Assembly (NCBI GenBank): GCA_030041435.1
Contig: JASHNW010000027.1
Coordinates: forward strand, 1 to 64,000
Origin: Acidobacteriaceae bacterium
GTDB lineage: Bacteria; Acidobacteriota; Terriglobia; Terriglobales; Acidobacteriaceae
DNA length: 64,000 nt
Direction: 5' to 3'
The notes beneath the pieces were generated by a model that searched no databases, had not been told where the DNA came from, and worked only from the letters and a program-made list of their open reading frames with translations. The translations under genes and the position numbers were made by a program. Positions within the stretch are counted from its first letter, which is position 1. Each line of letters starts with the position of its first letter. Positions 5,343 through 23,193 of this stretch are shown piece after piece.

Positions 5343-6085
5343 TCAGCGGTAGCCGCGCGCGAGGAGGTATTTCGCGCCAGCCTCGAAGGCTTCGGGACCA
5401 GGCACGGCGAACCCGAAGGCATCGGCCAACCGAGCGATCACATTGAAGGAGAAACAGACCGCGAGCGCATCCTCGATCTGTTGGCGCGACGCGCCGGCGG
5501 CGAAAACGGCTCGCATGTCATCCGCATCCACCGTGTGCTCGCGTGTCAGCTTGCCCAGCGACAGCAATGTCGCTCGCAATGGCTCCGAGAGGGCCGCGGT
5601 GTCGAGATCGGACAGGACCGCGGACACGGTTTTGCCGTCGCTATAGGCCCGTTGCGCGACCGCGGAATGCGCCTTCGTGCAGAACTCGCATTGGTTGGTC
5701 CTGGCGACGAAAGCAGCCATCAACTCGCGATCGCCAACAGACCAGGCCGAGGGTCCGCGCATCGCCTCCTGAGTGACTCCCGACATAGTACTACAGTGTT
5801 ACAAACTCGCAAGTTGCACAGGATCAGCATGTTGTGCTGAATCTGGCGAGTTAACGGAAATGGAACCTCACATGCTACAAACCGCGAAAATACTGGCGAT
5901 GGTCATTGTGTTCCGATCAGCCTTCAGCTTTGTAACACTGTAGTAATAGGACCGCCATAGAAGTCAGCCCGGTATTTGGCCAGTTTGACGACGTCGAGGA
6001 CCGGCTGGCGCGAAACCGTTCGAATGAGCGCGAAAAGCGCCTTCGTACCGAAACCGTGGCCAGTGTCGAGGATGCGAAGCCGCAT
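5343..6085 (-). pseudogene. AhpD-like / carboxymuconolactone decarboxylase family gene disrupted by a MITE-like insertion
   Basis: Two fragments form one gene. The 5' part (6085 down to the insertion) encodes MRLRILDTGHGFGTKALF...ADFYGGP. The 3' part encodes MSGVTQEAMRGPSAWS..., with the CEFCTKAH motif (CxxC plus His) of AhpD-like peroxidase-related proteins. A 157-bp element with one copy of a 4-bp duplication lies between them. Removing 161 bases rejoins the frame exactly as ...FYGGP-MSGVTQ... and gives an intact 193-residue protein. In the present sequence the upstream frame ends shortly inside the element (...ITTVLQS), so full-length protein cannot be made; the 3' fragment could at most be expressed from ATG 5786. 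The start overlaps the preceding gene's stop region (TGAGCATG), so the pair was an operon. Confidence 0.85.
5785..5949. mobile_element. 157-bp MITE-like element with 17-bp terminal inverted repeats and a 4-bp target duplication
   Basis: The element spans 5789-5945. Its ends are TACTACAGTGTTACAAA (5789-5805) and the exact reverse complement TTTGTAACACTGTAGTA (5929-5945). It is flanked by ATAG at 5785-5788 and 5946-5949. A subterminal inverted repeat, AACTCGC (5804-5810) with GCGAGTT (5846-5852), is also present. It carries no ORF of useful size, so it must have been moved by a transposase elsewhere. The element is more AT-rich than its surroundings. A TA duplication with ends one base longer and imperfect would explain the same junction, so the family (IS5-, IS630-like or other) is not decided. 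Confidence 0.85.
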
Positions 6086-6087
6086 GC

Positions 6088-6396
6088 TCACTCCTTCCCG
6101 GCCGCAGCCTCGAGGGCCGCAAGTGCCGCGTCGTATTGCCGAGTCGCTTGTCCGATCGCGGCGCACACCATAACCTCAAAAATCTGGTCCTCGCTGAGGC
6201 CCGACGCCTTCGCGGCGGTGATGTCCTCGTCGGTGACCCGCCAGGCATGCCGGGCAACCTTGTCGATCAGCGCACCCAAGGGTCCGGCGAGGCCGCTGTT
6301 GTTGAACGCGGCCCGGCGTTCGGAGGGTGATACCGTGCTGGCTCCTTCCAGGATTCGCCTCGTCAGTGCTTTTCGCGCATGCCTGATATCCGACAT
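6088..6396 (-). CDS. Small AhpD-like / carboxymuconolactone decarboxylase superfamily protein
   Basis: A 102-residue protein with the helical pattern LSEDQIFEVMVCAAIGQATRQYDAALAAL, which resembles the C-terminal half of AhpD-like proteins. It lacks the CxxC pair that its downstream neighbour has, so it may act as a partner rather than a peroxidase. ATG at 6396 has GGGAG 5 nt upstream; a longer start at 6453 adds only an Arg/Pro-rich low-quality extension. Its TGA (6088-6090) is 2 bases from the ATG of the disrupted CMD gene, so the two were probably co-translated. Confidence 0.7.
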   Translation of the reverse strand: MSDIRHARKALTRRILEGASTVSPSERRAAFNNSGLAGPLGALIDKVARHAWRVTDEDITAAKASGLSEDQIFEVMVCAAIGQATRQYDAALAALEAAAGKE

Positions 6397-22578: not shown

Positions 22579-23193
22579 ATGCGCCGTCTCTCCGTTGCCG
22601 CTGTCGTCTCTGCCGTGCTTGCCTTAACCCTCAACGCCTGGGCGGTACGAGTCGGCGATCCGGCCCCCGATTTCACGGGCACCGACTCGCACGGCCAGAC
22701 CCACAGCCTCGCGGAATACCACGGCAAGTACGTTGTCCTCGAATGGACAAACAACGGCTGCCCCTACACCCGCAAGCATTACGACAGCGGCAACATGCAG
22801 GCGCTGCAGAAAGAGTGGACCGCCAGAGGAGTGGTCTGGCTCACCATTCTGTCCTCCGCGCCCGGCGCGCAGGGCTACATGACCGCCAGCGAGGAGAATG
22901 CGTACCTCGTTCGCATGCATGCCGCGCCCAGCGCAGCTATTCTCGATCCCACCGGCGCCATCGGCCACGAATATGACGCAAAGACCACGCCGGACATGTA
23001 CGTCATCGATCCCAATGGCAAGCTTATCTATGCCGGTGCGATCGACGATCACCCGACGACCGATGTCTCCGACATCAGGAACTCGAAGAATTACGTCTCC
23101 GCGGCGCTGAGCGAGGCCATGCAGGGCCAGCCGGTTGCAGTTACCTACACCCGACCCTACGGCTGCAGCGTCAAGTATGAGGGCGCCGAATAA
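22579..23193 (+). CDS. Exported thioredoxin-fold redoxin / peroxiredoxin-like protein
   Basis: A 204-residue exported protein: signal peptide MRRLSVAAVVSAVLALTLNAWA, then a thioredoxin fold starting at VGDPAPDFTGTDSHGQ. The active-site region is WTNNGCPYTRKHY, with one cysteine instead of CxxC, as in the PRX-like/AhpC-TSA proteins. MYVIDPNGKLIYAGAIDD is the usual strand-turn-strand near the end. It probably reduces peroxides or reacts with protein thiols in the periplasm, with DsbD as electron donor. ATG 22579 has GGAGG 9 nt upstream. A second cysteine (PYGCSVKY) near the C-terminus could be the resolving residue. Confidence 0.82.
   Translation: MRRLSVAAVVSAVLALTLNAWAVRVGDPAPDFTGTDSHGQTHSLAEYHGKYVVLEWTNNGCPYTRKHYDSGNMQALQKEWTARGVVWLTILSSAPGAQGYMTASEENAYLVRMHAAPSAAILDPTGAIGHEYDAKTTPDMYVIDPNGKLIYAGAIDDHPTTDVSDIRNSKNYVSAALSEAMQGQPVAVTYTRPYGCSVKYEGAE

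Follow-up and report, generated by a model that had tools for sequence, protein, structure and literature searches.

A low-copy MITE-like element with IS701-like ends in an interrupted CMD/AhpD-domain gene of an Acidobacteriaceae bacterium

The element and the interrupted gene

The window, i.e., the whole 64-kb stretch of DNA that was analysed, contains a MITE-like element of 157 bp (positions 5789–5945, no strand assigned), in which no transposase is encoded. It is bounded by perfect terminal inverted repeats (TIRs) of 17 bp each, TACTACAGTGTTACAAA at 5789–5805 on the plus strand and its perfect complement at 5929–5945 on the minus strand. Directly at either side lies a copy of the tetranucleotide ATAG (5785–5788 and 5946–5949, both on the plus strand). 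Repeats and flanking duplication are thus present exactly where a previous sequence-only reading of this DNA had placed them. The small size and the TIRs are those of a MITE, and ATAG stands at either end of the element compared to a single site in homologues, as in a target-site duplication. Among perfect inverted 17-mers with arms 60–400 bp apart, the TIRs form the only pair in the window. Ten first-order shuffles of the window yielded 0.5 inverted pairs of 14 bp on average, which extrapolates to approximately 0.01 such pairs expected by chance at 17 bp, before matching 4-bp flanks are required. A further perfect 14-bp inverted repeat with arms less than 400 bp apart was observed at 22594–22794 and lies within the range of the shuffles. 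When folded as a whole strand, the element beats its shuffles (z −4.82) owing to the TIRs; the fold of the interior is no better than shuffles (z 0.05), and a structured RNA in the interior was rejected.

The element lies in a minus-strand gene that encodes a CMD/AhpD-domain protein. As assembled, the upstream, N-terminal part (5924–6085, minus strand) reads from 6085 through 46 residues of the gene and seven residues from the junction and element to a stop codon inside the element (5924–5926). The C-terminal part (5343–5786, minus strand) forms an ORF of 147 aa with an ATG at the junction, and it carries the CEFCTKAH motif, as claimed before. Removal of the element and one ATAG in silico joins the flanks to 193 codons, so that the restoration of the frame proposed by the sequence-only reading holds for a computed, not an observed, excision. 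The joined protein exceeds the cut-offs of the CMD model PF02627 (35.3 bits, cut-off 23) and of the AhpD core domain TIGR00778 (33 bits, cut-off 27.8) and has the CEFC motif of such proteins; against TIGR01926 and NF041238, which are narrower models, its scores remain below cut-off.

A homologue search in 61 genomes gave some match in 36, and two close full-length homologues were identified outside the own genome, one in a member of the same order but another family (G069) and one in the same genus (G001). The joined protein aligns to both over 193 columns without gaps, with 77% (G069) and 75% (G001) identity, and this comparison with uninterrupted homologues bears out the proposed splitting of an AhpD-like gene. 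At the DNA level, the joined sequence aligns to G069 over 821 columns (75%, seven gap positions) and to G001 over 828 columns (72%, 17 gap positions). In neither alignment is there an insert or a gap at the site. The ATAGG of the window at the insertion site corresponds to ATCGG and ATGGG in the two homologues. In the ten other members of the genus that were searched, no close full-length homologue was found, so the gene appears to be patchy in the genus; one of the genomes searched (G002) holds a 23-residue C-terminal fragment at 87% identity. Since the insertion is absent from the homologues in G069 and G001, it most simply arose in the lineage of the own genome. The sequence-only reading had called the event a recent non-autonomous transposition, of which the non-autonomous insertion stands; the intact gene halves, TIRs and target-site duplication suggest that it may be recent, and they carry no date.

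Two other accounts of the locus were weighed against the interruption of a gene by a mobile element. That the 157 bp are a normal spacer separating two distinct genes, or that their ends form a chance inverted repeat, has virtually no probability. Apart from the two ORFs being separately open, nothing speaks in its favour; we rule out ordinary intergenic DNA by the empty homologous sites and reject a chance inverted repeat by the rarity of such pairs in shuffles, and copies with duplications occur elsewhere. Homologues carrying the same 157 bp, or a lack of any other copies and duplications, had been named beforehand as outcomes that would speak against an insertion, and neither occurred. The other account accepts the insertion and takes the gene to be merely shortened, with a shorter protein possibly made from the junction ATG. 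We grant this a small chance, as the 147-aa ORF retains the whole CMD match (35.6 bits, against 35.3 bits for the joined protein) and neither half of the gene has an additional stop or frameshift. However, a good part of the N-terminal 46 residues recurs conserved in both homologues, no ribosome-binding site before the junction ATG was evident by eye, and a scan covering promoters of the sigma-70 type revealed no such site in 5700–6100. A terminator was not found in the same region either. We thus prefer an interrupted gene, which is presumably inactive now. For annotation, the ORFs at 5343–5786 and 5924–6085 are to be regarded as two parts of this one gene.

Copies of the element in the order

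The own genome (134 contigs, 5.77 Mb) contains a single copy of the element. By blastn, four of 100 genomes searched matched the element, the own genome counted. A pattern scan of genome contigs, which takes in only elements of about 144–173 bp, revealed six stretches, five in three Acidobacteria MAGs and one in a gammaproteobacterial MAG. From five copies, that of the window among them, we furthermore built a sequence profile and applied it to 397 genomes of the order. It matched in ten, four of which contain the copies used to build it. Matches were full-length in seven genomes, i.e., the own genome (G000), G003, G019, G481 (the same genome as G150), G638, G645 and, weakly, G670. The remaining three comprise a match cut by a contig end (G071), a partial match (G064), and a solo end beside CTAG (G594), for which no partner end with up to four mismatches was found within 1.5 kb at either side. 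Plasmid sequences contained no match to the element at an E-value of 1e-5, and viral contigs contained none to the paired-end pattern for elements of about 144–173 bp.

Seven copies form subfamily A (window, two in G150, and one each in G003, G019, G638 and G645). Every copy is exactly 157 bp long, and the copies align without gaps at 68–80% identity between lineages, with conserved interior blocks around GTTAAC, GGAAC and ACCGCG. The two G150 copies are 95% identical and lie at different sites. Because of this pair and the near-identical copies of G003 and G019, the number of independent subfamily A lineages is about five. A second subfamily is represented by two copies in G151 (the same genome as G184), which measure 147 bp each and share 70% identity; compared to the window copy, their interiors show no similarity above shuffles. 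The G670 copy measures 155 bp. None of the reading frames stays open throughout the seven copies of subfamily A, in agreement with the earlier description of an element without transposase, and a hidden small protein was rejected as well: one forward frame of 52 codons is open in five of the seven copies and closed in those of the window and G645, and the variable columns are spread evenly over the three phases (27, 28 and 25).

In the orientation of the window, equal flanks were found as ATAG/ATAG (window), CTAG/CTAG (L022, G638 and G645), TTAG/TTAG (L021), and TTAT/TTAT adjoining an eroded end (G003 and G019). Three of the ten tabulated copies have unequal flanks, namely TTAG/ATAG (L018), TTAG/CTAA (G670) and CTAA/CTAG (L019). 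Multiple dispersed copies, as known for MITEs, thus exist at low copy number, with one copy in the own genome, a pair in G150 and further ones elsewhere. The search for further copies suggested by the sequence-only reading was successful in relatives, including their 4-bp duplications, and unsuccessful in the own genome beyond the one copy. Sequence comparison places the element in a family of MITEs that is present at low copy number in this acidobacterial order.

A preference of the insertion for stop codons was considered and is not shown: stops of open frames of at least 100 codons lie at four of seven MITE sites, at one of three two-sided IS sites and at none of seven one-sided IS ends, and such stops also lie at 34 of the 76 YTAR sites in the window. 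Two further observations concern the distribution of copies. The MITE-bearing stretches of the MAGs G003 (L023 237–2483) and G019 (L015 912–3158), which belong to different genera, G003 to that of the own genome, are 98.9% identical over 2248 bp, reflecting either horizontal transfer or a binning mix-up. The stretch in the gammaproteobacterial groundwater MAG (L020 1817–1970), from another phylum, is an element of comparable size, whose ends (CTACTGTGTTA) are related; it has TTAG flanks and an interior that differs from the other copies.

IS701-type elements as candidate helpers

The only DDE_5 match in the own genome lies inside a complete element (C51:2493–3994). This element comprises 1502 bp with ends TACTACTGTGTTATAAG and CTAG at both sides, and its TIR is identical to that of the MITE at 14 of 17 positions. 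Its transposase scores 436 bits against the IS701 model NF033540 (cut-off 150). In the published description of IS701 (PMC2266710), members of the family measure 1400–1550 bp, have ends of the form ---YACT-Y--YR, with T as the consensus at position 7, and are flanked by 4-bp repeats; transposase, length, ends and repeat of the C51 element all agree with this. The same IS701 end recurs close to the edge of five further contigs of the own genome (C16, C35, C39, C46 and C65 of G000), less than 200 bp from the contig edge in each, and repeated IS701 copies therefore probably broke the assembly. A matching transposase elsewhere in the genome, as envisaged by the sequence-only reading, is thus present in so far as an IS701-type element with its own target-site duplication (CTAG) exists; its ends share 14, not all 17, of the bases.

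Among 150 relatives, DDE_5 matches were found in 24 and exceeded the cut-off in 19. Four elements of relatives (1460–1517 bp) have closely similar ends; the flanks are equal in two (CTAG and CTAA), unequal in L071 (TTAG/CTAG) and cut by a contig end in L074. The end pattern, with at most one mismatch, is present in 55 of 397 genomes of the order. Among these, G497 contains an IS701-type element of 1448 bp whose ends, TACTACTGTGTTACAAA, are identical to those of the MITE at 16 of 17 positions, with TTAG at both sides. Over the transposase region it shares 65% identity with the element of the own genome, and the copy may be damaged because its longest open frame comprises only 289 residues. G583 carries an IS701-type element of 1516 bp, the transposase of which shows 62% identity; it is flanked by ATAG at both sides, as is the element in the window. 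For the full-length element sought by the sequence-only reading, candidates with ends of 14/17 to 16/17 identity were found, and none with all 17 bases was seen among the listed matches of the pattern searches.

Compared to the IS701 consensus, the end of the MITE agrees at six of seven conserved positions and in the 4-bp repeat; position 7 is A, not T, whereas T was found in the complete IS701-type elements examined. The sole IS701-type end found with A at this position is a 60-bp solo end in G645 (contig C131; L140 675–734), which is 83% identical to a complete element and has TTAG alongside. With no notable transposase match in the surrounding 3 kb, it reads as an IS701-type remnant.

We consider it very probable, from the sequences compared, that an IS701-family transposase inserted the MITE in trans into the CMD/AhpD-domain gene. 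Such a transposase (DDE_5) would recognise the end class TACTAC(A/T)GTGTTA(C/T)AA(A/G) and cut with a 4-bp stagger, in most cases at CTAG, TTAG or CTAA. In the window the cut would have been made at ATAG, so that this tetranucleotide was duplicated and the miniature inverted-repeat element placed at codons 46–47 of the gene. The alternative is a genuine MITE with a helper outside the IS701 group, i.e., another transposase that has convergent ends and also duplicates 4 bp, and this appears clearly improbable. It would fit the pattern searches of three overlapping sets of genomes, as no autonomous element carrying the complete 17-bp end appeared in those of 150 and 399 genomes or among the matches listed for 397 genomes, and it would fit the interiors of the MITEs, which gave no match to those of the IS elements compared. 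Against it stand the IS701-type element of G497, which agrees at 16 of 17 end bases and in the length of the duplication, and that of G583, which duplicated ATAG itself. An origin of the MITE by internal deletion of an IS701 element is, apart from the ends, not supported, as the interiors differ. As no exact 17-bp autonomous element was seen and the interiors are unmatched, we infer the helper activity of an IS701-family transposase on the window copy from its ends, the length of its duplication and the bases of its target.

Known systems and the length of the element

The element resembles the IS701 family, as published (PMC2266710), in six of seven conserved end positions and in 4-bp duplications, and its ends are 14/17 to 16/17 identical to those of IS701-type elements of the same order. 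It differs in its length of 157 bp, the lack of a transposase, the unmatched interior and the A at end position 7. MITEPye1 of Paracoccus yeei is reported to be a bacterial MITE tied to a parent IS family, IS1182 (PMC11578231). Like MITEPye1, our element is small, has TIRs and direct repeats, lacks a transposase, occurs in few copies per genome and has IS-like ends; unlike MITEPye1, its parent family would be IS701, and its copies are spread across several genera of Acidobacteriota at 68–80% identity. No IS701-linked MITE is described in the excerpts of the literature found on IS701 with MITEs. The window MITE represents a new family, though one of a known type and as such fairly ordinary; new are the link to IS701, the finding of empty sites and the range over which the family occurs. 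For IS701 transposases, it would be a naturally occurring substrate that is moved passively, and its interruption of a gene is documented here for Acidobacteriota.

One odd feature of the family is its exact length despite a divergence of about 25–30%; seven gap-free copies at 68–80% identity are, in our judgement, unusual for non-coding DNA. The 157-bp and 147-bp subfamilies differ by a 10-bp step, about one helical turn, and short elements of other lengths were absent from the matches listed in the end-pattern search of 397 genomes. The 155-bp copy in G670 fits selection on length less well, and we regard such selection as rather improbable. The spacing may have to keep both ends on the same face of the DNA, so that one transposase complex could pair them. 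If true, these elements would represent a natural ruler for IS701 synapsis. The uniform length of the copies could allow the spacing of ends to be tested in IS701 transposition.
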